NCBI GenBank assembly: GCA_018333525.1
Contig: JAGXTF010000073.1
Span: 1-32,152 of the forward strand
DNA from: Bacteroidota bacterium
GTDB lineage: Bacteria > Bacteroidota > Bacteroidia > NS11-12g > UBA955
DNA length: 32,152 nt
Direction of reading: 5' to 3'
Shown: positions 1 to 17,464 of the stretch, in pieces
How the letters are laid out: each line of letters opens with the position of its first letter
Position numbering within the stretch: position 1 is the first letter of the stretch
Made by a program: the position numbers and the translations under genes
The notes under the pieces: generated by a model
What the model saw: only the letters and a program-made list of their open reading frames with translations
Told to the model about the DNA's origin: nothing
Database searches by the model: none

Positions 1-370
1 GTTCGCTTTCAGCATTTCTGTTTATCCGCGTCGCGGTTATTCGGCTGAAAGCCACCAACGACGCCCAACCTACCCGAATCGCCCATTCGAAGACGCTCCC
101 CGTTGTTGGTGTTCGCTTTCAGCATTTCTGTTTATCCGCGTCGCGGTTATTCGGCTGAAAGCCACCAACGACGCCCAACCTACCCGAATCGCCCATTCGA
201 AGACGCTCCCCGTTGTTGGTGTTCGCTTTCAGCATTTCTGTTTATCCGCGTCGCTGGTATTCGGCTGAAAGCCACCAACGACGCAAAGTCCCAGATAAAA
301 CTAATTTTAAAAACATGAATTATCCGCGTCGCTGTATATCGGCTGAAAGCCACCAACGACGCCCATCCTT
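1..370. repeat. Array of ~110-bp hairpin repeats (array 1, open at window start)
   Basis: The segment GTTCGCTTTC recurs at 1, 111 and 221, an exact 110-bp period, and the first two full periods are nearly identical. Each unit holds an imperfect inverted repeat: a left arm CGTTGTTGGTG-TTC-GCTTTCAGC style sequence and a right arm GCTGAAAGCCACCAACGACG. They can form an 11-bp and a 9-bp stem separated by a 3-nt bulge, around a ~30-nt loop. In the first two units the loop carries its own palindrome CCGCGTCGCGG. A constant linker of about 36 bp (CCCAACCTACCCGAATC...) separates units. The third unit diverges after its right arm, and a half copy with only the right arm lies at about 320-368. The array begins before the window. 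Long open frames across it are repetitive and are not taken as genes. Confidence 0.9.
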
Positions 371-870
371 CATTTCCCCAACATATCCCGAAAATGTTCC
401 TTCCCCAAAGGCAATTGCTTTAAATTTCCAATAAGCAATAATGCGCGTTCAATTCTTTTGTCCTGATTTTTTACGCTGTTTACATATTGAATAATATATC
501 TTTTTTTCCCGGGAGTTAGCAATTCAAATCGTTTTTCTCCTTCTGCATCGCTGAGCAATACCTGTTCCAATTCCACAGGCATTTCCATTCCATATTTGGA
601 TATGTCTTCCTCTAAAATCACATCTACCAAATCGCCTTTTTGCACGTGAAGTTTTTTCATGCGTTGGTTCGAAATACTGATATATGCGGCACCTTCGCCC
701 AGCGCCATAAACCCACACTGCCAACGTTCTTTTCCATTTACAACGCAAATCAAACGTTTCACCATTTTACCACCTGTTTTCTCTATAATTTCTGCAGGAA
801 TATATAAATAATGCATCCCGGATAAATGGGTTAATAAGCCAATATGTGTCTTAAATTTAATTGGATCCAT
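370..870 (-). CDS. YdeI/OmpD-associated family protein (DUF1905 + OmdA domains)
   Basis: This is a 166-residue protein starting at an ATG. The N-terminal half (about 1-95) looks like the DUF1905 beta-barrel-like domain, with the segment LHVQKGDLVDVILEED. The C-terminal half (about 98-166) looks like the OmdA/YdeI domain: an ELEQ-LLSD segment, then FELLTPGKKRYIIQYV and a run ending near GKEHFRDML. The family is common in Bacteroidota and soil bacteria and is named after a bacteriocin-protection phenotype, but its biochemical role is not established. There is no signal peptide or membrane segment, so it should be cytoplasmic. Its 3' end directly abuts the last half-copy of the repeat array. The upstream gap to the K+ channel gene is 152 bp, so it may have its own promoter. 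The family call is fairly sure, the function is not. Confidence 0.75.
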   Translation of the reverse strand: MDPIKFKTHIGLLTHLSGMHYLYIPAEIIEKTGGKMVKRLICVVNGKERWQCGFMALGEGAAYISISNQRMKKLHVQKGDLVDVILEEDISKYGMEMPVELEQVLLSDAEGEKRFELLTPGKKRYIIQYVNSVKNQDKRIERALLLIGNLKQLPLGKEHFRDMLGK

Positions 871-1022
871 TGCGTTATTGCATTAGAAAATATGGCCAAT
901 GTTTTATGAAAAATAAATCAAACATTTCTTCACAATAATAATTAATTTTTATTTTAATTATTCAACAGCGCATCTCCTAATCCCCTAACGCTCTAACGCT
1001 CTAATCTCGCTAACGCTCCAAT
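871..1022. repeat. Intergenic region with short CTAACGCTCTAA-type repeats
   Basis: Bases about 977-1020 consist of a degenerate short tandem sequence built on CTAACGCTCTAA. A similar CTCTAA-rich stretch occurs at about 5409-5434, so this is probably a dispersed low-complexity intergenic element of this genome. The rest of the interval is A+T-rich and shows no gene. No convincing terminator hairpin was seen. Confidence 0.6.
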
Positions 1023-2027
1023 TCAAACCTTCCCTGAACGTCCGGCTTTTCCGGAAGCAGTCTGCACTTCCTCTTGTGGTATTTCCGGAGGGAGTTCGGC
1101 CATTTCAAATTCTCCAAGTTTGTTCATGTCCAGTACTGGTTTTCCATCAGTAGTGGTACCAATTGTTGATTGGAATTTTGCCCCCCAAATCAATTCATCC
1201 ACGAAATAAGAAAATCGGTCAATAACCGTTTGTGAAGTAGTTTCTTCAAGCGCTTTAAACAAAACAATAAATTCTGTCCGGGCATTTACAAGATCTTCCA
1301 TTGTTTTTCCCCAGAGTGGACTCTTTTCATCAATTGGATGTACGATGGTCCAGCTTAAATTCATAAAATTGATTTTATCCAATTCCAAATCCAATACATA
1401 AAATCTTCTGCGCAATTGCCCGTCTGATTCATCGTTCATTCCCAAAGAAACTGAAACGGTATTTTCAATAGTTATGGAATATTTTCTTTTACTGGCAATT
1501 CGAAACATTGCAGCTCTTTGTGTTCCCCTGTATGGTGAAATCAAAACATTATCACTATGCAGCAGATGTGCTTTTGGTCTGCTAAATCTGCCATATAACA
1601 AACCTGTTGCTACTGCAAATGCCAATAAGCCTACAAGACCTTCCGTACTCGCCACAATATTCGTCCAAAAACCATGGGGGCTGACTCTTCCAAATCCAAT
1701 AGTGGTAAGACATTGTGTAGAAAAGAAAAATGCCTCCCCAAAATCTTTCCAGAAATTATCGGATGGTTCCATTCCAAGATTTTCAACACCCAGATAATAA
1801 TAGATTCCTGCAAAAAGTACATTGGTTGCTATATAAGCCACAAATACCATTAAAAAGAACTTGCTCCATTTCATGGTGGTAAGTTTGTGAAAGATATCCG
1901 AGGGACTAATCCATGGGCCACCTATGCGATCTACATTTGCGGAGCCATCGCGATTCATAAACCGCTGCCCGTTTTTGGATGCTAAGGTGCCAAATCCAAG
2001 CTCTTTGGACCTGATGTTTTTTGCCAT
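1023..2027 (-). CDS. Inward-rectifier potassium channel (KirBac-type)
   Basis: This is a 334-residue membrane protein with the Kir architecture. An amphipathic N-terminal region (to about 50) is followed by TM1 (about 55-77), a pore helix and selectivity filter TTIGFGR (109-114), TM2 (about 122-145), and a cytoplasmic immunoglobulin-like Kir domain (about 150-310). The stretch after TM2, GRFSRPKAHLLHSDN, is characteristic of bacterial Kir proteins, as is LLFRIASKR-like sequence (here MFRIASKRKY). The filter has Phe in place of the usual Tyr and Arg in place of Asp after the GYG-equivalent. It should sit in the inner membrane as a tetramer conducting K+. It lies 49 bp downstream of the sigma/partner pair on the same strand and may be co-transcribed. 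A TATATTTG box lies 4 nt before the ATG. Confidence 0.92.
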   Translation of the reverse strand: MAKNIRSKELGFGTLASKNGQRFMNRDGSANVDRIGGPWISPSDIFHKLTTMKWSKFFLMVFVAYIATNVLFAGIYYYLGVENLGMEPSDNFWKDFGEAFFFSTQCLTTIGFGRVSPHGFWTNIVASTEGLVGLLAFAVATGLLYGRFSRPKAHLLHSDNVLISPYRGTQRAAMFRIASKRKYSITIENTVSVSLGMNDESDGQLRRRFYVLDLELDKINFMNLSWTIVHPIDEKSPLWGKTMEDLVNARTEFIVLFKALEETTSQTVIDRFSYFVDELIWGAKFQSTIGTTTDGKPVLDMNKLGEFEMAELPPEIPQEEVQTASGKAGRSGKV

Positions 2028-2076
2028 AAGGCAAATATAACAAATGGAATTATGGAAAGGTTGGAATGATCTTATA

Positions 2077-3570
2077 CTATTGCAAAGATGCCTTCCCGGA
2101 AAGACCTTTCATCCAATGGTTTATTTCGCCAACACTATCCAGACTGGCATCCAATGCAACCCAAACCGGATCCATACCTTCGTCAAAAGCAGTTCTGTTT
2201 TCAATGTTGCGCAAATCGGAATACGTCCATTTTCCTTCCATGTTTTTTGCAAGCAGAACACAATTTTCATTTGCACGTAATGCAATCACAGATTCTTTAT
2301 TTTCAATTCTGTGTAAGGTGTTTTTATTCAAGAAAATTTGATATACCAGCCCATTGATTTTTTTGAATAATCTTGCAGATTTATCATTTGCTATTTCCCT
2401 GACTGCATGTAGTTGGGATTTGGCAACCTGGTATAAACCAAATTTCTTTATTTTTATTTCACTTACGGGAAGTTTGGTTTCAGTTATTATCTGATCTGCC
2501 GGTGCTGGTAAGGATATATCCAGATTGGTTTCCTGCCTGTAAACATCCATTGCAACTTTGTATTCTTTCATGGCCATTTTGTATTCGGATTCGTTGGTAA
2601 ATACCGGGTATACCTGAAAGCGATGAATAGTTCCGTTGTCGTAAAAAGAAACCAGATATTGACCGACAATTTCCGATTTAATCACCTTTATTTTATCCAT
2701 TACCTCAGGCAATTCTTCAGGAAAATATTTTTGTCCGGGAATAACTTCAAAAGTTACATTTTTATATTTACTGAGTTCCGGAATAAAACTCAAATCGATA
2801 TCAAATGCATGGTTATGCAAATCGCGCATTTTAGGTCTGGCAGGCTTTTGCTTCGTTTCCAAACGGGCAACTTCATCCGCCTGATTGGTTGAAAGTGCCA
2901 TGCCTTTTTCCTGTTGAATATGATATACGGCTTTTTGCAAATAACTCCAGGATTCACTATCATTTTTGCTCTGATACCAGTGATTATCGGGCTTTGTATG
3001 ATTGGTGCAAAACGCTATGGTAATTTGTTTTTGCGGGTGAATGATTTCGCTATGCAACGTTTTTATTTCAAACATTCCATTGGATTCCAACATAACCATT
3101 CCTTCCTTATTTGGGTATTCCAATTTCACATCCGCTGCAATCCAGTCTGCCGCATTTCTCATTTCGCGATAGAGCAATTGGGTGTTGTCCAACTTACCTC
3201 CATCTGCTGAAGTTATGGAACTTGGGGGGATAATGATTTTCGTACAACCCTTGTATAGAATGGTATCCCCATTTATCAGATCTACATTCAGCGTGTCAAA
3301 GCCGGTAACAAAAGGTTTAACGGTTACAGTATTTACTGTGGTAATAACTTTTGGCTTTGGTAATTCCACAGATTGGTTTTTGTTGTAATGCACCACTCCA
3401 AAAATACCGGCAACTACAGCAACACCTCCGCTGGTATAAGTAAGCCAATGACTCCACCAGGGTGTAGCCATTTGTATTGCCGCTTTTGCAGCTAAACCTT
3501 CAAATGAAGGCTTATTCGGAATGTCTGGTTTTCCTTCATTGCGCACTACGTGAATTCTTTCGGGTTTCAT
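2077..3570 (-). CDS. Membrane-anchored protein coupled to ECF sigma factor (possible anti-sigma)
   Basis: This 497-residue protein is not a recognised named family as a whole. It has a short N-terminal tail (1-43), one membrane segment (about 45-62) and a large C-terminal region predicted to be periplasmic. Residues about 105-170 hold a pattern seen in many Bacteroidota surface proteins: IIIPPSSI, then LLYREMRNAADWI, then LESNGMFEI. Those proteins usually show YREF-DAADIF-SAGMFEI. The rest is mixed alpha/beta with no motif recognised. Its ATG overlaps the stop of the upstream ECF sigma gene by 4 bp (ATGA), which implies translational coupling. That position and topology suggest an anti-sigma or sensor role, but the N-terminal tail is too short for a canonical zinc-binding anti-sigma domain. 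The anti-sigma function is inference. Confidence 0.6.
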   Translation of the reverse strand: MKPERIHVVRNEGKPDIPNKPSFEGLAAKAAIQMATPWWSHWLTYTSGGVAVVAGIFGVVHYNKNQSVELPKPKVITTVNTVTVKPFVTGFDTLNVDLINGDTILYKGCTKIIIPPSSITSADGGKLDNTQLLYREMRNAADWIAADVKLEYPNKEGMVMLESNGMFEIKTLHSEIIHPQKQITIAFCTNHTKPDNHWYQSKNDSESWSYLQKAVYHIQQEKGMALSTNQADEVARLETKQKPARPKMRDLHNHAFDIDLSFIPELSKYKNVTFEVIPGQKYFPEELPEVMDKIKVIKSEIVGQYLVSFYDNGTIHRFQVYPVFTNESEYKMAMKEYKVAMDVYRQETNLDISLPAPADQIITETKLPVSEIKIKKFGLYQVAKSQLHAVREIANDKSARLFKKINGLVYQIFLNKNTLHRIENKESVIALRANENCVLLAKNMEGKWTYSDLRNIENRTAFDEGMDPVWVALDASLDSVGEINHWMKGLSGKASLQ

Positions 3571-4172
3571 TGGTTCACGCTCCTTTCCACTATTTTTTTA
3601 AGGTGTTGTATAATTCTATGTAGTTTTACTCTCATATGGTTTACATTGGTTTTTTCGATTGCTGCGAGCTCTTCATAGCTCATTTTTTCAAAGTATTTCA
3701 TCACTATCAGATCCCTGTCTGAATCTGGTAATTTCTTTATGGCCTTTATTATTTCTCCGATATTTTCCTCCTTGGCTATATCGGATTCCATATTATCCGC
3801 CATTTCCATCAATCCATCATCACGCACCCAAAGTTTTGCATCCCGATTCGCCTTCTTAAAATAATCAGCAATTACATTTCTTGCAATAGCATAAAGCCAG
3901 GAACCAAAATTATAGCCCTGGTATTTGTATTTGCCAATATGCATCATGGCTTTTTCAAATACCAGTGATGTGAGATCGAGACAATCTTCTTTTTCATAAC
4001 ACCGGCGGTAAACAAACAGATAAACTGCCTCGTAATACTTGTCGTAAAGAGGGTGAAAGGCATTCAGGTTATTCACAGAATCGGCTATCCATACAAGTTC
4101 TTCAAGATGTGCCGGATTCGTGCCTGTTTGGGTATTTTCAGTTATCTTCATCAAAATTGCAACCGGGTACAT
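3567..4172 (-). CDS. RNA polymerase ECF-type sigma factor
   Basis: This is a 201-residue sigma-70-family protein with regions 2 and 4 only. Region 2 (about 40-110) includes LYDKYYEAVYLFVYRR and FGSWLYAIARNVIADYFKK, the core-binding and -10-recognition helices. Region 4 (about 138-195) includes IKKLPDSDRDLIVMKYFE and a helix-turn-helix MSYEELAAIEKTNVNHMRVK. It would direct RNA polymerase to a small regulon. Two ATG starts are possible, at 4172 and at 4151 (MKITEN); neither has a Shine-Dalgarno sequence, as expected in Bacteroidota, and the N-terminal difference is 7 residues. It overlaps the next gene by 4 bp, and that gene encodes a single-pass membrane protein, so the pair is a likely signal-transduction module. 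The sigma call is firm; the signal is unknown. Confidence 0.93.
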   Translation of the reverse strand: MYPVAILMKITENTQTGTNPAHLEELVWIADSVNNLNAFHPLYDKYYEAVYLFVYRRCYEKEDCLDLTSLVFEKAMMHIGKYKYQGYNFGSWLYAIARNVIADYFKKANRDAKLWVRDDGLMEMADNMESDIAKEENIGEIIKAIKKLPDSDRDLIVMKYFEKMSYEELAAIEKTNVNHMRVKLHRIIQHLKKIVERSVNQ

Positions 4173-4253
4173 GGTTTGGATATACTAACAGTAGTGTTCC
4201 CAATTCATTACAATAAACGGGAAAAATGTTTTTAAAATGTGTTATTGAAGTTC

Positions 4254-4286
4254 GATGTGGGATGTCAGATGTGGGATGTCAGATGT
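4254..4286. repeat. 14-bp tandem direct repeat
   Basis: GATGTGGGATGTCA occurs twice in perfect tandem at 4254-4267 and 4268-4281, followed by a third partial copy GATGT. It sits immediately upstream of the second hairpin-repeat array. A related ATGTGGGATGTT occurs directly after that array at about 4719-4730, so the motif flanks the array on both sides. Confidence 0.85.
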
Positions 4287-4299
4287 TAAATACAATCAG

Positions 4300-4711
4300 C
4301 CTTTCGAAGACGATCCCCGTTGTTGGTGTTCGCTTTCAGCATCTCCGGTTATCCGCGTCGCTGGTATTCGGCTGAAAGCCACCAACGACGCCCAACCTAC
4401 CCGAATCCAACCTTCGAAGCATTCCCGTTGTTGGTGTTCGCTTTCAGCATTTCTGTTTATCCGCGTCGCTGGTATTCGGCTGAAAGCCACCAACGACGCC
4501 CAACCTACCCGAATCCAACCTTCGAAGCCCATTCCCGTTGTTGGTGTTCGCTTTCAGCATCTCTGTTTATCCGCGTAGCTGTTTTACAGCTGAAAGCCAC
4601 CAACGACGCCCAACCTACCCGAATCCAACCTCCGAAGCCCATTCCCGTTGTTGGTGTTCGCTTTCAGCATCTCTGTTTATCCGCGTAGCTGGTATTCGGC
4701 TGAAAGCCACC
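4300..4711. repeat. Array of ~110-bp hairpin repeats (array 2, four units)
   Basis: This is the same unit as at 1-370. GTTCGCTTTC recurs at 4328, 4436, 4546 and 4656, giving periods of 108, 110 and 110 bp. Each unit again has the left arm TTGGTGTTCGCTTTCAGC and right arm GCTGAAAGCCACCAACGACG. The linker differs slightly from array 1 (CCCGAATCCAACCTTCGAAGC). Variation concentrates in the loop. The unit starting at 4546 has AGCTGTTTTACAGCT, a different local hairpin, in place of the usual loop palindrome. The last unit loses the end of its right arm at about 4711. The conserved arms with variable loops suggest selection on, or origin from, a folded nucleic acid. Confidence 0.9.
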
Positions 4712-4743
4712 GGAGGAATATGTGGGATGTTAGAATTCAGAAT

Positions 4744-5236: not shown

Positions 5237-5331
5237 TATTTCTATTGTGCACGAGTTCTACAAATATAGAAACTGCCAATGTTAAACGTCTATTAAAATA
5301 GGGCAAGCACAGTAGGTTGTTGAGCGGAGTT

Positions 5332-5393
5332 GGTGGTTGAGCGGAGCCGAAACCACCGGCTGTTTCGACTCCGCTCAACCACCGGCTGTTTCT
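5332..5393. repeat. REP-like inverted repeat (GGTTGAGCGGAG...CTCCGCTCAACC)
   Basis: GGTGGTTGAGCGGAGCCGAAA (arm from 5332 to 5352) pairs with 5363-5383 with one mismatch over 21 bp and a 10-nt loop. A 14-bp direct repeat CCACCGGCTGTTTC (5353-5366 and 5380-5393) overlaps it, and a third partial TTGAGCGGAGT copy lies just before at about 5320-5330. Sequences of the TTCGACTCCGCTCAACC type are familiar dispersed intergenic palindromes in Bacteroidota genomes. It lies between the RDD remnant and the pirin gene and could terminate transcription from either side, but there is no T-tract. Confidence 0.7.
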
Positions 5394-5436
5394 ACCTCGC
5401 GAAACCACGCTCTAATTCTCTAACTCTCTAACACTT

Positions 5437-17055: not shown

Positions 17056-17464
17056 AAAAAGTTTATTTATTCTGAGTTTATGAATGCAAAATTGCAGGAT
17101 ATGAATAAGGAGTAATTTTAAATTCGGACGAGTTGCGAAATTTTGTTTCTGAGTTGTAAAAACCGGTTACAGAATTGAATTTAAAATTTCAAATGTGAGA
17201 CAAATGCAGCGCGAATTTGGAATAATTAAAGGTTCCGATTTCGGATACCACTAAACGCAACTTTGATAATTAATACTATTGGTTATCTGTAAAAAAAACT
17301 GCTTCTATTAAGAAGAATTCCCCACCCATATTAATATACCGGTACTTTACAATCACATAATCCATCACTTGCCTTCTGAGTTACTATGTACTATGTACTT
17401 GGTACTGGGTACTAGGTTACTGGGTTACTGGGTACCAGGTACTAAGCACTCAGTAAGTTCCCTT
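17056..17464. other. 409-bp non-coding interval upstream of the STAND gene
   Basis: No gene is evident. The first ~300 bp are A+T-rich and must contain the promoter of the STAND gene; a CAATTTTG box (one mismatch to TAnnTTTG) lies about 40 bp upstream of its ATG. The last ~80 bp are low-complexity GTACT-type repeats, listed separately. No terminator hairpin for the regulator gene or small RNA could be identified with confidence. Confidence 0.5.
17381..17453. repeat. Low-complexity GGTACT/GGGTTACT repeat tract
   Basis: A run of degenerate copies of TACTGGGTAC-like units reads ACTATGTACTATGTACTTGG, then GTACTGGGTACTAGGTTACT, then GGGTTACTGGGTACCAGG. It lies just downstream of the LytTR gene that ends at 17465. 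Like the CTCTAA tracts, it is a dispersed intergenic low-complexity element and is not coding. Confidence 0.75.

Follow-up and report, generated by a model that had tools for sequence, protein, structure and literature searches.

A tandemly arrayed bulged hairpin in a Bacteroidota genome as a probable relative of RAYT-linked REP elements

The stretch of DNA analyzed here (the window; 32,152 nt) is the whole of contig C73 (JAGXTF010000073.1) of a Bacteroidota genome assembled into 118 contigs (GCA_018333525.1; 3.71 Mb, 97.8% complete, 3.8% contamination). Two tandem arrays of a 108- to 110-bp unit stand at its left end, and the core of the unit is a bulged hairpin that we call H. An original prediction, made from the letters of the window, had placed both arrays in the same orientation, and our results agree: Tandem Repeats Finder (TRF) reported a left array at 1-284 (period 110, 2.6 copies, 98% matches) and a right array at 4303-4711 (period 110, 3.7 copies, 93% matches), and every hairpin in them points the same way, on the + strand. 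The left array, recovered by both TRF and covariance model R1, is cut by the contig end, and its model-defined hairpins lie at about 1-63 (5' arm missing), 101-173, and 211-283. They are followed by a spacer module read from the sequence, D (CAAAGTCCCAGATAAA...CATGAA; 284-319, + strand), and by a half hairpin, H' (320-369, + strand; 94% to the hairpin by blastn), which keeps only the loop and right arms and ends just before the stop codon of an OmdA/DUF1905 gene (370-870, - strand). Modules resembling D, as judged by eye, stand downstream of hairpins at other loci. The right array extends to 4719 when TRF and the covariance model are combined (4303-4719) and lies just downstream of a + strand tract of GANGTNN heptads found by pattern search (4247-4286). 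Its four hairpins occupy 4318-4390, 4426-4498 (model and folding), 4536-4608 (model), and 4646-4719; in the last, the right foot arm after GCCACC is replaced by GGAGGAATATGTGGGATGT, a junction that recurs on contig C105. Open reading frames (ORFs) that cross the array (4320-4688 and others) were dismissed as spurious, since 110 bp, the repeat period, is not divisible by 3. The block bracketed by the arrays encodes, as had been proposed, a sigma factor (sigma-70 regions 2 and 4) and a K+ channel (inward-rectifier domains), both recognized with Pfam.

H is about 73 nt long. An 11-bp foot (C-GTTGTTGGTG paired with CACCAACRAC-G) is followed by a 3-nt bulge on the 5' arm, a 9-bp upper stem (GCTTTCAGC/GCTGAAAGC), and a loop of about 31 nt; the foot consensus is GTTGTYGGT/ACCRACRAC, and the bulge is often TTC. 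Across 24 aligned copies, 97.5% of cells in the 20-pair structure were paired, a value that fell to 25 to 50% when the partners were slid by one to three columns. Changes on both sides affected 4 pairs and 18 cells (shuffled mean, 4.3 cells; 0 of 500 shuffles as high), and double changes occurred in both helices, for example U-A and C-G in 16 and 7 of the 24 copies and G-C and A-U in 19 and 4. Two sub-families keep the foot through such a double change, one with GTTGG/CCAAC and the other with GTCGG/CCGAC. Folded as RNA, one 110-nt unit was more stable than its shuffles on the + strand (z = -4.9) and less markedly so on the - strand (z = -1.5). As single-stranded DNA, four copies folded on both strands gave z scores of -3.7 to -7.9, and in each of the eight folds none of 200 shuffles did as well. 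With covariation and folding in agreement, the predicted bulged hairpin stands. The smaller hairpin that had been placed within its loop is not supported as a conserved feature, since the consensus structure holds no pairing there. Because of the compensatory changes we conclude that the hairpin itself matters, as single-stranded DNA or as RNA; the lack of any rule relating it to genes, described below, favors DNA. The loop contains, in many copies, an imperfect direct repeat (GTTATCCG / GTTATTCG; for example at L033:1562-1591 on contig C111).

Counting copies genome-wide had been recommended along with the prediction. A covariance model found 39 same-strand copies of H on 14 contigs, which we grouped into 17 loci; the other 25 of the 64 listed model matches were the opposite strands of the same copies. 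A blastn search with one unit as the query gave 43 matches at E ≤ 0.01. The copies are intergenic, and their flanking genes are arranged in tandem (9 loci), divergently (5), or convergently (2); these counts come from crude longest-ORF calling and cover the 16 loci whose neighbors are known on both sides. The locus at the end of C105 was dropped because that contig ends there. Among 36 proteins encoded at or near H loci, Pfam revealed no neighbor gene common to the loci and no transposase or integrase, which bears out the earlier remark that none lies nearby. Copies were more alike within a locus (88% identity, 14 pairs) than between loci (78%, 262 pairs; 0 of 5,000 permutations as high), and this difference points to local tandem expansion after dispersal. 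Array periods vary, at about 110, 150, 193, and 212 bp. Of the 17 loci, 9 have GANGTNN heptads within 150 bp upstream of H on the same strand, and none has them on the opposite strand. Apart from the tract in the window at 4247-4286, such tracts are found in about 25 other places and also stand alone between genes. Some H copies and heptad tracts (L040, L041, L043, and L100) are followed by a recurring palindrome, CGACAAGTCATGACTTGTCG. A replication-strand bias of H was considered and set aside: GC skew was too weak to use, and contig C76 carries H in both orientations.

A search for a RAYT (REP-associated tyrosine transposase, where REP stands for repetitive extragenic palindrome) had likewise been advised, and RAYT-like genes are present in this genome according to the NCBIfam REP-transposase model NF047646. 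Three of them, on contigs C104, C59, and C58, are 42 to 48% identical to one another and carry an HUH motif in the form NH(I/F)H together with Y(I/T)HxNP; their matches to the model (E values of 5e-17 to 2e-20, 62 to 73 bits) fall below its cut-off of 80. A profile built from four proteins of this kind gave a weak match to 4er8, a solved TnpAREP entry (E = 0.006). Beside these three genes lie hairpins of 48 to 50 nt. GTYGGT is part of their 10-bp foot, the 5' arm bulges by 5 nt (TTCAT, TTCTT, CTCAT, or CTCTT), and the upper stem measures 7 bp. The hairpin next to the C104 gene reads GCGGTTGGTG-TTCAT-GTCGCAT, where H has GTTGTTGGTG-TTC-GCTTTCAGC, and the C59 gene is set between hairpin copies at 61349 and 62063. 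H matches the hairpins of three RAYT genes in its foot, its 5'-side bulge, and its two-stem layout. A GTYGGT-foot hairpin was located within 500 bp at three of six class-2 RAYT-like places, namely, at all three related genes. Among 470 background windows of 1.5 kb, 6 contained such a hairpin, and one of these 6 is the site of the C59 gene. By our own arithmetic, 3 of 3 versus 5 of 469 would come about by chance roughly 3 times in a million, for a subfamily that was picked after the matches had been seen. When 945 kb of the genome was searched for the foot, each of the 70 strand-hits was, by eye, either H or a short RAYT-type hairpin; this flanking sample represents about a quarter of the genome and is biased toward contigs with H or heptads. 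A relative from another genus, G008, carries GTTGTTGGTG...CACCAACAAC palindromes at distances of 33 to 116 bp from where the alignment of a RAYT match ends; the match is 40% identical to the C104 protein, and this RAYT place, the one tested there, has a GTYGGT-foot hairpin within 500 bp.

The short hairpins also form a family in their own right. This second family, of about 48 nt (GTCGTTGGTCCTCATGCC...GGCGACCAACGAC), has covarying upper stems, alternates in orientation, and flanks RAYT genes, with members in the source genome (G000) at C12:76079-76408, C31:24423, C59:61276-62111, C75:19419, C76:62617, C99:104, C118:286485, C15:88987/90503, and C32:5418-6506. A different group of enzymes, five class-1-like Y1 transposase genes matching PF01797 (L045 at C118:286857, L046, L047, L048, and L049), lies at positions unrelated to H. 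We dropped these genes as partners of H; they have Y...Q..HH-type motifs, and other palindromes adjoin them, for example GCACCGTAGGTGCG and CGACCCCTACAGGGTCG.

Outside its own genome, full-structure H was found neither in 56 relatives in the same family and order nor in a sample of 395 genomes of the class; blastn gave no match in the 56 relatives. The class-wide model search, run with stricter filters, returned the source genome and one chance-like match (G187, E = 9e-4, weak fold). The model search of 39 family genomes returned the source genome and G012; in G012 it had picked up long palindromes that carry the GTTGTTGGTG foot. The foot pattern GTTGTYGGT-N(35-65)-ACCRACRAC occurred in 6 of 108 genomes of the order: the source genome (22 forward), G012 (2), G008 (2), and G440, G470, and G016, which have a single place each with no hairpin shape evident beyond the pattern. 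A reversed-pattern control gave one match (G456). An exact upper-stem pattern retrieved 17 stretches from public genome contigs, none with the H foot by eye; it catches only 22 of the 39 copies in the source genome, so diverged relatives of H may be missed. Ten of the 17 stretches come from one series of Bacteroidales bins with a different repeat. In L084, L086-L088, L090-L092, L094, L096, and L097, we saw an unrelated dispersed repeat, GGCTGAAAG...CTTTCAGC...TTATACACAA...GCCGGCTGAAAGCTGAAAG, which belongs to Tannerellaceae, Dysgonamonadaceae, and Bacteroidales bins and sometimes forms inverted pairs 300 to 400 bp apart. A phage or plasmid origin of H was also rejected: there was no match, and viral contigs gave none.

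We consider it probable, with some reserve, that H is a non-autonomous hairpin element resembling REPs and BIMEs (bacterial interspersed mosaic elements), namely, a long-loop, head-to-tail variant, lacking a GTAG/GTGG guide, within a superfamily of RAYT-linked hairpins. In plainer terms, H is most likely related to the known REP repeats of bacteria, as an unusual kind that moves passively. The superfamily, as defined in this analysis, comprises hairpins with a GTYGGT foot, a 5'-side bulge, and an upper stem, all of which H has; its members that flank a RAYT are the short hairpins on C104, C59, and C58 and the GTTGTTGGTG palindromes of G008, and no copy of H. Of the three possibilities first raised, namely, a REP/BIME-like element, a structured RNA array, and a non-autonomous mobile element, the REP/BIME-like one fits best in view of the RAYT-flanking hairpins of the same architecture, and the RNA array is disfavored by the lack of a consistent gene arrangement. 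A RAYT-type HUH enzyme, or one since lost, would recognize the foot and bulge of one strand in single-stranded form, copying or moving the hairpin in trans. Slippage or unequal exchange would then expand single insertions into head-to-tail arrays of differing period, a step suggested by the within-locus similarity and the differing periods. That a RAYT mobilizes H in trans is something we infer, because no H copy flanks a RAYT.

Several observations weigh against this interpretation. No H copy in this assembly adjoins a RAYT, and neither an empty site nor an excision of H was seen. The RAYT-like genes on C77 and C14 and a broken copy on C118 lack such hairpins, so that the hairpin link holds for one RAYT subfamily, defined post hoc; meanwhile, one of the five class-1 Y1 genes has a GTYGGT-foot hairpin nearby. 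In G012, no RAYT match lies within about 1.5 kb of either of its two matching palindromes. In 20 copies of H and 29 short RAYT-type hairpins, the 8 nt on the 5' side of the foot never included GTAG or GTGG, and the loop of H, at about 31 nt, is far above the 2 to 5 nt of described REPs.

TnpAREP of Escherichia coli acts strand-specifically on single-stranded REP and needs both a bulge and a GTAG motif (PMC8266576). Like E. coli REPs and BIMEs, H is an imperfect palindrome with a stem bulge, intergenic and clustered (PMC8266576, PMC2817692); unlike them, it lacks GTAG and is about twice as long. BIMEs alternate in orientation, as the short RAYT-type hairpins do, whereas the H copies of an array all point one way. 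Canonical REPs are small hairpins of 20 to 40 bp (PMC3733652), a size that H exceeds at about 73 nt, and H does not carry the canonical guide, a GTAG or GTGG 0 to 2 nt 5' of the hairpin. REPs are also described as having a basal stem of 7 to 20 nt and, in the long type, a second stem joined through a 1- to 3-nt bulge (PMC6006769), and the 11-bp foot, 3-nt bulge, and 9-bp second stem of H agree with this description. The CGTC-tagged REPs have stems of 8 to 9 bp, loops of 4 to 5 nt, and an unpaired CGTC, and no dedicated transposase was found for them (Di Nocera et al. 2013, PMC3733652). In most type-A copies of H, CGTC appears in the right arm when the - strand is read, but the stretch sits within the paired foot, and other copies have CGTT.

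The nearest parallel is subclass 2.6 of the TnpAREP/RAYT proteins of Bacteroidetes, whose flanking structures were termed atypical and have copies in the genome (Quentin et al. 2018, PMC6006769). Similarly, the RAYT genes described here are flanked by bulged hairpins without GTRG that also occur elsewhere, and the foot and bulge of these hairpins are shared by H. Three features set H apart: its copies adjoin no RAYT gene, its loop measures about 31 nt, and its arrays run head to tail. The W motif of the RAYT proteins is WE or WK, compared with the WQ tabulated for subclass 2.6 in PMC6006769, so that a placement in this subclass is tentative. H fits a RAYT substrate of the atypical kind, with its conserved foot, its 5' bulge, and no GTRG. 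A broader idea, to which we would give somewhat less than an even chance, is that the RAYT-type enzymes of this lineage read a constant GTYGGT foot and 5' bulge instead of a GTAG guide. The upper hairpin would then be free to diversify into many families, including H, which may have lost its own RAYT and been kept and amplified in trans as head-to-tail arrays. The foot-plus-bulge rule joins three RAYT-flanking hairpins, the RAYT palindromes of a relative, and a large orphan repeat family. It also provides a concrete sequence rule for testing how this RAYT group recognizes DNA without a GTAG guide; in PMC6006769, Bacteroidetes-type RAYT hairpins are called only "atypical."

Other origins could produce a dispersed palindrome. 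H might be a miniature inverted-repeat transposable element (MITE), i.e., a deleted DDE-type insertion sequence with the hairpin arms as its terminal inverted repeats, moved in trans by the transposase of that insertion sequence. We regard this as unlikely, even though H has inverted-repeat ends, is dispersed between genes, and is restricted to a lineage, and even though comparable Bacteroidota MITEs with internal tandem repeats exist. One of these, BrickBuilt of Porphyromonas gingivalis, is lineage-specific and intergenic, with internal tandem repeats and 19 copies (PMC4596501). Unlike H, it consists of 23-bp units between a leader and a tail, and no RAYT-type hairpin is described for it in the available text of that source. 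A blastn search of the 118 contigs at E values of up to 10 turned up no transposase-bearing element whose ends match those of H, no target duplication was recognized by eye at single copies, and an asymmetric bulge and a foot held in common with RAYT-flanking hairpins are unexpected for a DDE MITE. Somewhat harder to credit is a passive minisatellite, spread solely by slippage and recombination without a dedicated enzyme. The several unit lengths and the local homogeneity would suit it, as would the number of 193-bp H-containing units, which differs between contigs C43 (81711-82417) and C111 (1539-2060), otherwise identical over 2,052 bp; the difference could reflect true variation in length or an artifact of assembly. 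Yet slippage and recombination account neither for a spread over 17 separate loci nor for the conserved pairing or the foot that H has in common with RAYT-flanking hairpins. A transcribed structured RNA, selected as a 3'-end stabilizer, a processing site, or a regulatory array, seems more doubtful still. Compensatory changes are what such an RNA would show, the unit folds better as RNA on the + strand than on the - strand, and U-G, the commonest pair in foot column 5 (14 of 24 copies), preserves the + strand hairpin. However, H has no fixed relation to gene ends or orientation and no common neighbor gene, the same pairing can be explained by single-stranded DNA, and Rfam gave 0 matches in the window at the gathering score and only chance-level ones at E values of up to 5.

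It is very improbable that the two arrays bound an excisable cassette with the sigma factor and the K+ channel inside, a version of the original proposal that recombination between them could delete or circularize the block. The arrays are direct repeats, and because their longest exact match is 76 bp, recombination between them is physically possible. The gene order in a relative speaks against the cassette. The right end of contig C47 carries on the left-end array of C73 (99% over 148 bp), and G008 encodes adenylosuccinate lyase (74%), a transglycosylase (64%), and the K+ channel (60%) together, in the order of C47 followed by C73. On these two grounds we infer that C47 and C73 are neighbors across a broken array; contigs C47, C73, and C43 all end in arrays, which have broken the assembly. 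In G008 the channel lies about 5 kb from the lyase and transglycosylase, so that the linkage is kept where the arrays are absent. No junction left by deletion of the block was seen on the contigs examined, H arrays elsewhere enclose unrelated genes or none, and no integron integrase scored above cut-off. An integron attC array was rejected as well: there was no TIGR02249 match over the cut-off, and there were no cassette genes, the 110-bp units holding no real gene.

Two further repeats lie in the window, away from the arrays. A palindromic repeat (GGTGGTTGAGCGGAG...CTCCGCTCAACCACC) adjoins a pirin gene at 5311-5408, and the heptanucleotide TACTAGG is repeated in tandem, in 8.7 copies, at 17382-17444.

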